Assembly (NCBI RefSeq): GCF_001077535.1
Contig: NZ_CP011968.1
Span: 1,674,001 to 1,738,000 of the forward strand
Reading direction: 5' to 3'
Length of the DNA: 64,000 bases
Origin: Clostridioides difficile ATCC 9689 = DSM 1296
Lineage (GTDB): Bacteria > Bacillota > Clostridia > Peptostreptococcales > Peptostreptococcaceae
A model generated the notes under the pieces. It saw only the letters and a list, made by a program, of their open reading frames with translations. It had not been told where the DNA came from and did not search any database. A program made the translations under genes and the position numbers. Shown in pieces: positions 19,804 to 23,983 of this stretch (positions are counted from its first letter, which is position 1; every line of letters starts with the position of its first letter).

Positions 19804-19805
19804 AA

Positions 19806-19831
19806 AACTTTTTGTCGAAGTTCAACGTCTA
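19806..19831 (+). promoter_or_regulatory. ECF (sigma-V type) promoter of the lysozyme-response operon
   Basis: AAC (19806-19808) within AAAACTTTTTG, 17-base spacer, then CGTCTA with CGTC at 19826-19829. The AAC / CGTC pair is the ECF-group signature, and B. subtilis sigma-V promoters are similar. Its place in front of an operon encoding an ECF sigma factor implies autoregulation. Confidence 0.75.
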
Positions 19832-19911: not shown

Positions 19912-20745
19912 ATGAGAAATAAAAAGAAAAAAATAAATAGAAAGAAGTTGTATTTGCTTTTAAGTGCTATTGTAGTGTGTCTGGCTTTTATAGTAGTTGG
20001 TGTTCGCGTCAGCTCTTTAAATATGAAGGAAAATGAAATTAGTAGAAATGCAAAACTGTCAAGTTCTACTATTACAGATATAGTATCTAATACATCAATA
20101 GAAGTTAGTAAAGGGCCAAGTAAAAGTTCTGGAAAAATAGCATACATAACTATAGATGATGGTCCATCTAAATTTACTGACGAGATGATAAAAACTTTAA
20201 ATAAATACAATGTTAAAGCAACTTTTTTTATGATAGATGGGAATATGAAGGAATATCCACAGCAAGTTAAAAATATAATTAAAAATGGGAACACAGCAGG
20301 TTTTCATAGTGTATCACATGATATTCACAAGCTTTATGTTACTAGTACATCAGCAAAAGAGGAATTTGATACAAATGATCAAACTTTTTATAAGATAACT
20401 GGTAAACATTCAAAAGTAATAAGAATACCTTATGGAAGCAAACCATATACACCACAAGCCTCTTATCAGGCTTTAGTTGATGCTGGATATAAAATTTGGG
20501 ACTGGGACTTAGATACAGAAGACTGGAGATCTAATTCTTCTCAAATTGTACAAAATGTAAAAAATCATATTAAGAATAGAAAAGGTGAAGATAAAGACCA
20601 ACTTGTAGTTTTAATGCATGAGAAAAAACAGAGTGCAGAAGCTTTAGATTCAGTTTTAAAATTCTTATCAGATGAAGGTTATGAATTTGCGCCAGTAGAT
20701 CAAAACCAAATACCAAAAAATTATTGGTTACGTAATTTAGAGTAG
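19912..20745 (+). CDS. pdaV: Peptidoglycan N-acetylglucosamine deacetylase (NodB family), sigma-V operon
   Basis: Membrane-anchored polysaccharide deacetylase, 277 aa. A basic N-terminus and one membrane segment (about residues 13-31) place the enzyme outside. NodB motifs: T-I-D-D-G-P-S with Asp at 82-83, H-S-V-S-H at 132-136 for the metal, R-I-P-Y-G near 173, W-D-W-D-L-D and L-M-H near the C-terminus. Deacetylation of peptidoglycan glucosamine lowers lysozyme attack. It is first in an operon with prsA-like, csfV and rsiV genes, which matches the known C. difficile sigma-V locus; hence the symbol. GGAGGTCG lies just before the ATG. Confidence 0.9.
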   Translation: MRNKKKKINRKKLYLLLSAIVVCLAFIVVGVRVSSLNMKENEISRNAKLSSSTITDIVSNTSIEVSKGPSKSSGKIAYITIDDGPSKFTDEMIKTLNKYNVKATFFMIDGNMKEYPQQVKNIIKNGNTAGFHSVSHDIHKLYVTSTSAKEEFDTNDQTFYKITGKHSKVIRIPYGSKPYTPQASYQALVDAGYKIWDWDLDTEDWRSNSSQIVQNVKNHIKNRKGEDKDQLVVLMHEKKQSAEALDSVLKFLSDEGYEFAPVDQNQIPKNYWLRNLE

Positions 20746-20813: not shown

Positions 20814-21770
20814 TTGAATAAAAAAATTTATATAGGAATGGTCGGAATATTGTCTTTGATGATGGTTGGTTGTAATAAAAGTTTAGCAAAAGTAAATGAT
20901 GTGGAAATCACAAAAGAACAGTACAAAAAAACAAAAGCAGTTTTATCTGCTACTAATAATTATATAAATGGGCAGTCTTTAGATGAATTAGAAAAAACTT
21001 TGGATAAAAAAGGTAGAAATAAATTAGAAAATGTTATAATATCGTTTATGGTGGATAATGAACTTTTATATCAAGAGGCTAAGGATAAAGGACTAACTCC
21101 AAGTAAAAGTGAAGTAGACTCAAAATATCAAGAACTAGAAGATAAGATGAATTTGAATACAAGCTATAAGGAAAAAATGGACAAAGCAGGTGTTGATAAA
21201 GATTATTTAAAACAAGAAATATCTAGAGATTTAGCAATAGATAAAAATAAAAAGGCCTTTGAAGATAGAATAAACATAAGTGATAATGATATGGAAGCCT
21301 ACTATACAAGTCATAAAAAAGATTTTAATGTAGAAGAAGTAAGTGCTTCTCAGATACTTATATCGACTTTAGATAAAAATAAAAAAGAAGTAAGCAAAGA
21401 TAAAAAAGAAGCTTTGAAGAAGAAGGCAGATAATATATTGACTAAAATCAAAAATGGAGAAAGTTTTGAAAGTTTGGCTAAAAAATATTCGGATGATAAA
21501 GCAACTGGAAAAAATGGAGGACAGCTAGGATATTTTACAAAGGATGATAAAAATGCTGAGTTTACAAAGGAAGTGTTCAAATTAAAGAAAAATGAAGTTT
21601 CAAATGTGTTTGAAACTAGTTATGGATATCATATAGTCAAAGTTACTGATAAAAGAGAAAGACAAAAAAGTTTTAATGAGTGTCAGAGTTTAATAAGAGA
21701 ATCTATTTTAAATGAAAAGTATATTGAGCATATAAAAAAACTGAATGAAGATGCTAAAATAGACAGATAG
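20814..21770 (+). CDS. prsA2: Parvulin-type peptidyl-prolyl isomerase lipoprotein (PrsA-like)
   Basis: Surface foldase of 318 aa. A lipoprotein signal ends in L-M-M-V-G-C with the lipid-modified Cys at residue 20. The SurA/PrsA N-terminal helical part (about 24-170) is followed by a rotamase domain (about 176-275) with S-A-S-Q-I-L-I-S, the E-S-F-E-S-L-A-K-K-Y-S stretch, G-G-Q-L-G-Y-F and S-Y-G-Y-H-I-V-K-V. It probably aids folding of exported proteins under cell-wall stress. TTG start with GAGGTG eight bases upstream. Within the sigma-V operon. The symbol follows the naming I recall for this operon. Confidence 0.87.
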   Translation: MNKKIYIGMVGILSLMMVGCNKSLAKVNDVEITKEQYKKTKAVLSATNNYINGQSLDELEKTLDKKGRNKLENVIISFMVDNELLYQEAKDKGLTPSKSEVDSKYQELEDKMNLNTSYKEKMDKAGVDKDYLKQEISRDLAIDKNKKAFEDRINISDNDMEAYYTSHKKDFNVEEVSASQILISTLDKNKKEVSKDKKEALKKKADNILTKIKNGESFESLAKKYSDDKATGKNGGQLGYFTKDDKNAEFTKEVFKLKKNEVSNVFETSYGYHIVKVTDKRERQKSFNECQSLIRESILNEKYIEHIKKLNEDAKIDR

Positions 21771-21821: not shown

Positions 21822-22304
21822 ATGTTTAAGAGTTTAAAGAGAACGAAAGTTGAGAAATACATTATCGATAATAAAGACTCTTTTTATAGAATAGCATATA
21901 GTTATACGAAGAATGAAGAAGATGCCTTAGATGTGGTTCAAGAAGCCATGTATAAGGCACTATACTCAGTGGAAAATATTAAAGAAGTAAATTATATAAA
22001 GACATGGTTTTATAAAATTTTAGTTAGAACGAGTATAGATTTTATTAGAAAAAACCGTAAATATAATAATATGACAGATATTGACCTTATAGATGAGACT
22101 GGAGAGTATGATAAATATACTGATTTGGATTTAAGAAGAGCTTTGGAAGAATTACCTATTGAATACAAATCTATTATAATATTAAGATTTTTTGAAGATT
22201 TAAAGATTGAAGAAGTAGCAATAATATTGGATGAAAATGTGAATACTGTTAAAACTAGGTTATATACTGCTTTAAAAAAACTAAAATTAAAAATTGAAGA
22301 GTAG
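21822..22304 (+). CDS. csfV: ECF sigma factor V (lysozyme response)
   Basis: Group IV RNA polymerase sigma factor, 160 aa. Region 2 (about residues 10-75) shows the Y-R-I-A-Y-S-Y-T-K-N-E-E-D-A-L-D-V-V-Q-E-A motif and K-T-W-F-Y-K-I-L; region 4 (about 100-155) shows L-P-I-E-Y-K-S-I-I-I-L-R-F-F-E-D-L-K-I-E-E-V-A and the recognition helix V-N-T-V-K-T-R-L-Y. Gene order with a deacetylase before and an RsiV anti-sigma after fits CsfV, which controls lysozyme resistance in C. difficile. RsiV is expected to hold it inactive until lysozyme triggers RsiV cleavage. Confidence 0.93.
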   Translation: MFKSLKRTKVEKYIIDNKDSFYRIAYSYTKNEEDALDVVQEAMYKALYSVENIKEVNYIKTWFYKILVRTSIDFIRKNRKYNNMTDIDLIDETGEYDKYTDLDLRRALEELPIEYKSIIILRFFEDLKIEEVAIILDENVNTVKTRLYTALKKLKLKIEE

Positions 22305-22315
22305 GGATAAAAAGA

Positions 22316-23185
22316 ATGACAAGCAAAGAAAGGTTAAATAAGTTAAAAGATGAGTATCATAAAATTCCAATACCCAAGAAATTAGATACTATAATAAATC
22401 ATGAAAAAATAGAAAACATATATCGAGAGAAAAATAAAAAAGTAAATAGATTAAGATTTAAAGTTGCAATAGCCTTTGCATGTATATTTACAGTATTAGT
22501 AAATATAAGTCCTGTATTTGCAGACAATTTTTCTAAGATACCTGTAATTGGAGCAATAGTAGAAGTAATAACTATAAAAAATTATAGTTTAAAAAGTGAA
22601 AATTATGAAGCTGAGATTGATATTCCTAAAATACGAGGTTTAAAAGATAAAAACTTAGAACAAAGATTAAACAGTAGTTTTATGGAAGATGGAAAAAGGC
22701 TTTATCATCAATTCCAAGAGAGAATGGAGAAGATACAATCATCAAAGAATAAAGGATATAAATCTTTAAGTTTGAGTTATAGTGTAAAAAATAATTCTAA
22801 AAAATTTCTATCAATAGAGATGACAAAAAATGAGATAGAGGCTTCATCATATGTGAGTAAGGTACATTATACTATTGATAAAAAAAGACAAATAGTTTTG
22901 ACTTTGCCAATGCTTTTTAAAGATGATAAGTATATAAAAGTTATAAGTGATAATATAAAAGAACAAATGAGAGAACAAATGAAAAAGGATAGTACAAAAT
23001 CCTATTTTATAGATCAAAAAAAAGACTTGCCTGTTGAAGATTTTAAAACAATTAATAAGTATCAGGATTTTTATTTTAATAAAAATGAAGACCTTGTAAT
23101 TTGTTTTGATGAATATGAAGTAGCACCTGGTTATATGGGCGCAGTTGAGTTTGTAATACCATATAAAGTAATAAAAGATTTGTAA
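22316..23185 (+). CDS. rsiV: Anti-sigma-V factor RsiV, lysozyme receptor
   Basis: Membrane anti-sigma factor, 289 aa. Cytoplasmic part about residues 1-47 (sigma-binding), one membrane segment about 48-66, then an extracellular DUF4163/DUF3298-type domain to the end. The segment ends in V-F-A followed by Asp (69/70), a signal-peptidase site, matching the known mechanism in which lysozyme binding lets signal peptidase cut RsiV before intramembrane proteolysis. Conserved block E-Y-E-V-A-P-G-Y-M-G-A-V-E-F is near the C-terminus. It starts 12 bases after csfV. Confidence 0.92.
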   Translation: MTSKERLNKLKDEYHKIPIPKKLDTIINHEKIENIYREKNKKVNRLRFKVAIAFACIFTVLVNISPVFADNFSKIPVIGAIVEVITIKNYSLKSENYEAEIDIPKIRGLKDKNLEQRLNSSFMEDGKRLYHQFQERMEKIQSSKNKGYKSLSLSYSVKNNSKKFLSIEMTKNEIEASSYVSKVHYTIDKKRQIVLTLPMLFKDDKYIKVISDNIKEQMREQMKKDSTKSYFIDQKKDLPVEDFKTINKYQDFYFNKNEDLVICFDEYEVAPGYMGAVEFVIPYKVIKDL

Positions 23186-23227
23186 ATTGAATAGTAGTTT
23201 ATATATAAATCTTTTAAGGAGGACAAT

Positions 23228-23983
23228 ATGACTACATATAAAAAACTTAAAAAATCTATATTTAAAATTGCTATATTTTCAATATGCTTATTAGTTTCAT
23301 TAGTAGATACAAACCCTATATTTGCAGGTAGTTCCTTTAATGAAACTTCAAATAGTGATACGATAAAGGTGTTAAATGCTAAGAGTATCAACTTTAAACA
23401 AGACAATTATGAAGTGAATGTGAGTATTCCTAAAATAAAAGGTTTAAAAGATAAAACTTTAGAGAATAAATTAAACAATGAGCTTTTGCAAGATGGGAAA
23501 AAAATTTACAGTGAATTTCAAAATAAAATGAAAAAGGAAAATAATAAGGGTCATAGATACCTAAATGTAATCCATAATGTCAAAAATAATTCTAAGGACT
23601 TTTTATCAATAGAAATGACAAAAGAAGAGATAGAAGCTTCCTCATCTATAACTAAGAAGCATTACACTGTTGATAAAAATAGAGGAATACTATTAAATTT
23701 ACCAATATTTTTTAAAGATAGTAGATATATTAGAGCTATAAGTGATAATATAAAAGAGCAGATGAGAAATCAAATTAAGAAAGATGATACAAAATCTTAT
23801 TTTATAGACCAAGATAAAGACTCGCCAGTGAAAGATTTTGAATCTATAAATAAGTATCAAGATTTTTATTTTAATAAAAATGGAAATCTTGTGATTAGTT
23901 TTGATGAATATGAAGTAGCTCCTGGTTATATGGGAGCAGTAGAATTTGTGATACCAAATAAAGTAATAAAAAGACTAAGATAG
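23228..23983 (+). CDS. Second RsiV-like protein lacking the cytoplasmic anti-sigma region
   Basis: A 251-aa paralogue of RsiV directly downstream (42 bases, with AAGGAGGA). The extracellular domain is closely similar along its whole length, sharing for example F-L-S-I-E-M-T-K, the S-D-N-I-K-E-Q-M-R segment, K-Y-Q-D-F-Y-F-N-K-N and the E-Y-E-V-A-P-G-Y-M-G-A-V-E-F block. The N-terminus differs: only about eleven residues precede a hydrophobic segment (about 12-28) ending in I-F-A at 31-33, a plausible signal-peptidase site. So the sigma-binding part is missing and the product is probably exported or membrane-tethered outside. It could bind lysozyme without signalling, as a buffer or inhibitor; that is inference. 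Corresponds to the CD1560-type gene of this operon. Confidence 0.88.
   Translation: MTTYKKLKKSIFKIAIFSICLLVSLVDTNPIFAGSSFNETSNSDTIKVLNAKSINFKQDNYEVNVSIPKIKGLKDKTLENKLNNELLQDGKKIYSEFQNKMKKENNKGHRYLNVIHNVKNNSKDFLSIEMTKEEIEASSSITKKHYTVDKNRGILLNLPIFFKDSRYIRAISDNIKEQMRNQIKKDDTKSYFIDQDKDSPVKDFESINKYQDFYFNKNGNLVISFDEYEVAPGYMGAVEFVIPNKVIKRLR

Follow-up and report, generated by a model that had tools for sequence, protein, structure and literature searches.

The DNA analysed here (hereafter the window) is the full 64,000-nt stretch from position 1,674,001 to 1,738,000 of the forward strand of contig NZ_CP011968.1 of Clostridioides difficile ATCC 9689 = DSM 1296, and all coordinates below are in window numbering. 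Its gene lbpA, an open reading frame (ORF) of 251 codons plus stop that begins with ATG and occupies exactly positions 23228-23983 of the plus strand, is the last gene of the sigma-V operon (pdaV, prsA-like, csfV, rsiV, lbpA) and follows rsiV after 42 bases. We consider it very probable that lbpA is a tandem duplicate of rsiV that has lost the sigma-binding part and now supplies a lysozyme-binding inhibitor from the operon. In the mechanism that we propose, rsiV would have been duplicated in tandem in the Clostridioides ancestor, and the lbpA copy would then have dropped the cytoplasmic sigma-binding part while retaining the outer domain that grips lysozyme. When lysozyme is present, LbpA would be made from the sigma-V operon, bind lysozyme by the same two loops that RsiV puts into the active site and thereby inhibit it, as a minor protective layer beside peptidoglycan deacetylation by PdaV.

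Neither the gene nor its main function is new. The window gene is the published C. difficile lbpA, because its operon and architecture (an outer domain like that of RsiV, no sigma-binding part, and a place in the csfV operon) agree with the description of LbpA in the passages of PMC9044953 consulted here; the idea of a new discovery was rejected on the same ground. Those passages, citing Kaus et al. (2020), state that LbpA binds lysozyme, confers resistance to low lysozyme levels and is not involved in activating or regulating sigma-V, and they term it membrane-bound. No feature that we tested differs from the published LbpA, although the lost switch described below goes unmentioned in these passages. 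LbpA does not appear in the discussion section of that paper, and no discussion of a lost switch or of secretion was found in the literature passages on LbpA, though Kaus et al. (2020) may cover it. The additions made here are small. They comprise the loss of the switch, from which a testable prediction follows, the restriction of the tandem pair to one genus in the genomes searched, and a deletion by fusion. The locus tag is presumably CD1560, and no literature was found under that tag.

Architecture of LbpA and the amphipathic switch

A preliminary description of this DNA, made from the sequence alone, had taken the gene for an RsiV paralogue with a short N-terminus that lacks the cytoplasmic part of roughly 45 residues, and the alignment bears this out. 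In a single pairwise comparison, RsiV 41-289 and LbpA 5-250 are 59% identical over 249 residues (76% positives, E = 2e-104). The hydrophobic stretch begins at about residue 10 in LbpA versus about residue 48 in RsiV, with some 9 and 47 residues ahead of it, respectively, and the relatives are alike in this. The cytoplasmic anti-sigma region (about 45 residues) is present in 8/8 Clostridioides RsiV proteins and in 0/6 intact LbpA proteins. Pfam assigns PdaC (DUF4163) and DUF3298 to both RsiV and LbpA; DUF4179, which spans RsiV residues 45-119 (the membrane segment plus what directly follows on the outside), matches the window RsiV and none of the six intact LbpA proteins at E 0.001. LbpA nonetheless scores 254 bits on the RsiV profile NF052658 (cut-off 250, profile positions 35-278 of 286), and the automatic NCBIfam name "anti-sigma-V factor RsiV" would mislead, as the architecture is not that of an anti-sigma factor. 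Compared with RsiV (NF052658; PDB 5JEN), LbpA has the same outer-domain fold, lysozyme-contact loops and leader with a signal-peptidase site, whereas it lacks the cytoplasmic sigma-binding region, the DUF4179 match and the amphipathic switch.

The switch was defined in Bacillus subtilis RsiV. According to the passages of PMC6066255 consulted, putative amphipathic helices just past the cleavage site of B. subtilis RsiV hold off signal peptidase until lysozyme binds, and deletion of residues 67-76 or 67-86, or the introduction of Lys into the hydrophobic face, leads to lysozyme-independent cleavage. For C. difficile RsiV, the passages of PMC9044953 report that Trp substitutions in the predicted site stop lysozyme-induced degradation; the residues mutated there, V67, A69 and N71, are present at the same positions in the window RsiV.

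The alignments indicate that LbpA has lost this switch, which shields RsiV from signal peptidase. That the two proteins share nearly the whole outer domain, as first described, holds overall and fails in the 17 residues past the cleavage site (RsiV 70-86), where they are only 16% identical, the lowest value among 229 overlapping 17-residue scan windows (the chimeric rsiV of genome G005, described below, was left out of the scan). Within the families, identity over the same segment is 84% among RsiV and 56% among LbpA. Furthermore, in an alignment of 80 proteins (6 LbpA, 8 Clostridioides RsiV and 66 more, drawn from the family, the order and the collection of named genomes), the hydrophobic pattern together with the switch Pro (position 76) is found in 74/74 RsiV-type rows and in 0/6 LbpA, and the mean Kyte-Doolittle value of the segment runs from 0.31 to 1.39 in the RsiV-type rows versus -1.26 to -0.38 in LbpA. 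Left out of this alignment were 11 DUF3298 proteins that are long, split or distant, six loci from Clostridioides genomes that the set already contained (including the broken piece of lbpA in G010), and L053, whose contig is as long as that of L005. Two of the 74 rows call for comment: L040 is without the anti-sigma part, and L049 has a called start that excludes it while similar residues lie in frame upstream. Rows found by the RsiV profile may be biased toward having the switch; 33 of the 74 were found by peptide patterns outside it and are thus unselected for it. The signal-peptidase-like I-F-A site noticed in the preliminary description is present at residues 31-33, and its last residue, A33, is kept in 6/6 LbpA. 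AlphaFold was dropped as a test of the switch, both switch regions having a predicted local distance difference test score (pLDDT) below 50 (RsiV residues 17-79, LbpA residues 1-43).

Lysozyme binding and the fate of LbpA

The outer domain itself is modelled well, and structure prediction, named at the outset as a check, agrees with a lysozyme binder. The AlphaFold model of LbpA has a mean pLDDT of 83.6, mostly at least 90 from residue 51 on, and its best structural match is PDB 5JEN, the RsiV-lysozyme complex (E = 4.5e-23, root-mean-square deviation 1.5 over 205 columns); the sequence match to 5JEN has an E value of 2.4e-41. In the passages of PMC5014341 consulted, B. subtilis RsiV inserts two loops into the lysozyme active site, S169, P259 and Y261 were tested by mutation, and the outer domain at 1:1 gives near-complete inhibition of lysozyme. 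When the 5JEN fold and these three positions were used as the test for an RsiV-type binding domain, all were found in LbpA. The 16 contact positions of Table 2 of PMC5014341 were also transferred to eight Clostridioides RsiV and six LbpA proteins aligned with B. subtilis RsiV. LbpA is identical to B. subtilis at 11/16 positions in 6/6 genomes, and Clostridioides RsiV at 9/16 (five genomes, including the window) or 10/16 (three genomes). K137, A167, S168, S169, D225, E256, G260 and Y261, and also P259, are invariant in all 15 aligned rows. H139 and E163 are B. subtilis-like in 6/6 LbpA; in Clostridioides RsiV, position 163 is N in 8/8 and position 139 is Y in 3/8. It should also be noted that the window RsiV departs from B. 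subtilis at both of these contacts (Y for H139, N for E163) and LbpA keeps both; LbpA might bind lysozyme more tightly than the window RsiV does.

A role as a lysozyme binder or inhibitor, foreseen in the preliminary description, agrees with the binding and low-level resistance reported in PMC9044953. The action expected of LbpA, by loops placed in the lysozyme active site, is the same as that of the Gram-negative lysozyme inhibitors Ivy, MliC and PliC, and the passages of PMC5014341 liken RsiV to Ivy and MliC. LbpA differs in belonging to another protein family: for 6/6 LbpA, Pfam at E 0.001 yields only DUF3298 and PdaC/DUF4163, a Pfam result, as Ivy, MliC and PliC were not themselves compared with LbpA.

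The ligand-binding face predicted for LbpA, the same as in RsiV, would also suit the damping or resetting of sigma-V signals initially suggested, in which LbpA, as a decoy, would compete for the lysozyme that RsiV senses. The place of lbpA in the csfV operon is in keeping with this, and any abundant lysozyme binder would have to reduce free lysozyme. However, a damping role is contradicted by the statement in PMC9044953 that LbpA takes no part in sigma-V activation or regulation; it was dropped, and we regard it as improbable.

Whether the protective LbpA that we favour is secreted or tethered had been left open in the preliminary description; the lost switch points to the former, and PMC9044953 to the latter. 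Because the switch is lost and the cleavage site kept, lysozyme-independent cleavage and release of LbpA seem reasonably likely: with the shield gone, signal peptidase would cut the protein with or without lysozyme and release it to the wall or the medium; the mature form would be basic (about 25 kDa, computed isoelectric point 8.7-9.2 if cut after A33). On balance, LbpA may neutralise lysozyme as a freely secreted protein and be a natural equivalent of the switch-less B. subtilis RsiV deletions. The term membrane-bound would instead suit a tethered lysozyme trap, held at the cell surface by an uncut N-terminal signal anchor, and the leader is indeed a hydrophobic segment with a Lys-rich N-terminus. 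Yet the segment that blocks signal peptidase is lost in 6/6 LbpA, the Ala at -1 is invariant, and B. subtilis RsiV without that segment is cleaved independently of lysozyme (PMC6066255); we hold the tethered form to be rather unlikely.

Distribution, phylogeny and selection

The order was surveyed in 393 genomes drawn from a larger group, with matches at E 1e-40 or better and at most six candidates scored per genome. RsiV-type matches were found in 89/393 genomes, and adjacent strong pairs in 6/393, all of them Clostridioides; weaker second copies would be missed at this threshold. As to conservation of the operon arrangement across relatives, a question raised in the preliminary description, lbpA is intact in 6 of 8 genomes of the genus, broken in one (G010) and absent from one (G005). 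Among named genomes, in a set that may omit the species of the window, the closest hits of LbpA lie on contigs of C. difficile CD160 (85% identical over LbpA residues 1-251) and strain 173070 (64% over 5-251).

The two exceptions differ in kind. In G010 the matches to lbpA (L039:3697-4446) are scattered over frames, and the first open piece is 100 amino acids long. G005 has a single rsiV of 290 amino acids (L034:2360-3232), RsiV-like in its first part and LbpA-like in its 3' part, and no lbpA. Codon columns 180-225 of this gene are 95% identical to the window rsiV and 76% to the window lbpA, whereas columns 225-260 are 83% and 93% identical, respectively, and in the tree of RsiV residues 211-289 its product groups with LbpA (support 97/97). 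The chimera, which we infer to be the trace expected from unequal recombination between tandem copies, is the only clear rsiV/lbpA hybrid seen. Recent general gene conversion between rsiV and lbpA could not be shown, paralogue identity within and across genomes being near equal in seven segments (for example, 82.1 vs 81.1%). G005 is also a natural lbpA-minus Clostridioides.

Outer-domain trees split the six LbpA from the eight Clostridioides RsiV with support of 98/97 (residues 91-210), 94/94 (91-289) and 88/87 (211-289), and they unite all 14 Clostridioides proteins to the exclusion of RsiV from other genera (99/98 for 91-210, 100/99 for 91-289). The root as drawn is a midpoint only, and the duplication reading places it outside the genus; given such a root, the trees indicate one duplication in the Clostridioides ancestor.

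The mean ratio of nonsynonymous to synonymous substitution rates (dN/dS) over the 15 pairs of six genomes is 0.20 for lbpA, 0.12 for rsiV, 0.05 for csfV and 0.09 for pdaV. These values show that lbpA is under purifying selection, looser than that on the other three genes. A decaying leftover of the tandem duplication, devoid of selected function, might be expected to show the losses in G010 and G005 (2/8 genomes), the relaxed switch segment and a dN/dS above that of the three tested neighbours. Against such decay, the ratio is still 0.20 across six genomes, the outer-domain segments of orthologues are 86-92% identical at the DNA level, the lysozyme-loop residues are invariant, and lbpA affects lysozyme resistance (PMC9044953). 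We regard a leftover without function as very improbable.

Several points nevertheless weigh against our reading of LbpA as a sigma-V-controlled, secreted lysozyme inhibitor. The residue at -3 of the cleavage site is Ile, which is rarer at signal-peptidase sites than Ala or Val, and the AlphaFold models are uninformative on the switch in either protein. The B. subtilis contacts E88, S93, T165, Q166 and T171 are altered in both C. difficile proteins. Because two of the eight genus members are without intact lbpA, the benefit of LbpA is probably modest. The secretion step sits uneasily with the membrane-bound protein of PMC9044953, where the cut in C. difficile RsiV may fall after A69 or after N71. 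Finally, sigma-V control of lbpA would depend on a weak promoter match. The site 5' of pdaV follows the AAAAC form of the sigma-V consensus, for which 0.26 chance matches are expected in the window, and it is suggested as a candidate only; the stricter form of the consensus, TGAAAC-N15-18-CGTC, has no match in the window.

The operon, related loci and significance

The coordinates of the features are collected in the table; the names csfV, rsiV, pdaV and lbpA are adopted from PMC9044953 and PMC7864072. A separate promoter or terminator between rsiV and lbpA was considered and dropped: promoter-like sites in the rsiV-lbpA region are no commoner than in shuffles (46 found, 46.1 expected), and the sole terminator-like site in the search for extra lbpA signals lies elsewhere (20951-20936, minus strand).

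Table. Features of lbpA and its operon in the window
Feature	Position	Strand	Basis
lbpA coding sequence, 251 amino acids, RsiV paralogue without anti-sigma region	23228..23983	+	ORF, NCBIfam, pairwise alignment; name: PMC9044953
Ribosome-binding site AAGGAGGA, 4 nt 5' of lbpA ATG	23216..23223	+	Read from sequence
LbpA signal-peptide-like leader, residues 1-33, ending I-F-A	23228..23326	+	A33 invariant in 6/6 LbpA
LbpA polar segment, residues 34-50, in place of the RsiV amphipathic switch	23327..23377	+	Alignment; switch as defined in PMC6066255
LbpA lysozyme-binding-type outer domain, residues 51-251 (PdaC/DUF4163 + DUF3298), 5JEN fold	23378..23980	+	Pfam, sequence and model match
LbpA A137-S138-S139, counterpart of the B. 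subtilis RsiV A167-S168-S169 lysozyme loop	23636..23644	+	Alignment; PMC5014341 Table 2
LbpA A231-P232-G233-Y234, counterpart of the P259/G260/Y261 lysozyme loop	23918..23929	+	Alignment; PMC5014341
rsiV, anti-sigma-V factor and lysozyme receptor, 289 amino acids	22316..23185	+	NF052658, 334 bits (cut-off 250)
rsiV residues 70-86, switch (DNFSKIPVIGAIVEVIT), lost in lbpA	22523..22573	+	Alignment, window-identity scan
csfV, extracytoplasmic function (ECF) sigma factor sigma-V	21822..22304	+	NF053879, 203 bits (cut-off 190)
PrsA-like peptidyl-prolyl isomerase	20814..21770	+	Pfam Rotamase_3, 1.4e-36
pdaV-type polysaccharide deacetylase, first gene of the operon	19912..20745	+	Polysacc_deac_1, 3.5e-29; name: PMC9044953/PMC7864072
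Candidate sigma-V promoter AAAAC-N17-CGTC, 5' of pdaV	19804..19829	+	Consensus match; weak

Elsewhere in the window lie three T-box leaders (Rfam RF00230; 25773-26030, 44244-44484 and 44550-44785), the last two in tandem. The same genome encodes a third, distant PdaC/DUF3298 protein of 287 amino acids (L050:2342-3205, near 645.5 kb of G000:C1), and among the ORFs of the surrounding 6 kb no sigma factor was seen by eye.

Other genomes hold related arrangements. G033 encodes a 244-residue RsiV-type protein without the anti-sigma region, with the switch and DUF4179 kept (L040:953-1687); no sigma gene was seen by eye among the ORFs of at least 90 amino acids on this 4.5-kb locus, and a transposase-like ORF, also by eye, lies upstream. 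This is an independent loss of the anti-sigma part and differs from the case of LbpA. At four Paenibacillus loci (L054:3989-5113, L055:3945-5060, L056:3815-4930 and L077:3966-5078), a secreted-looking protein of about 370 amino acids is encoded some 70-200 bases 3' of rsiV. Pfam, applied to 3 of the 4 loci, assigns to it PdaC/DUF4163 and DUF3298 together with a copper amine oxidase N-terminal domain; here too, a sigma-V locus may produce an RsiV-like outer domain as a secreted protein of its own. The rsiV of G031 is split into two open pieces (L090:1653-2213 and 2225-2536), one of 103 amino acids with the membrane segment and switch and one of 186 with the outer domain, and sits behind a sigma-factor-like ORF by eye. 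In Hungatella (L062:4435-5412 and L064:4426-5775), some 0.7 kb past rsiV there is a further protein, which has a membrane segment of its own and a motif resembling the switch; DUF3298 was found in that of L062, the one tested. Among the weaker family-survey matches listed, one other adjacent pair was noticed, in G068 (L092:526-1955), with ORFs of 264 and 168 amino acids by profile matches. It was rejected by eye as an rsiV-lbpA pair, since the two DUF3298-type ORFs are distant and no sigma gene was seen on the 3.4-kb contig.

Taken together, lbpA cautions that a match to the RsiV profile alone is no proof of an anti-sigma factor, and it illustrates how a sensor may be converted into an effector through the loss of modules. 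It also offers a natural test of the RsiV switch model, in that a switch-less paralogue with the same kind of site should be cut without lysozyme. If LbpA is indeed secreted, a receptor would have become a soluble inhibitor by duplication and the loss of two modules, the sigma binder and the switch, and the released protein could act at a distance and shield neighbouring cells.
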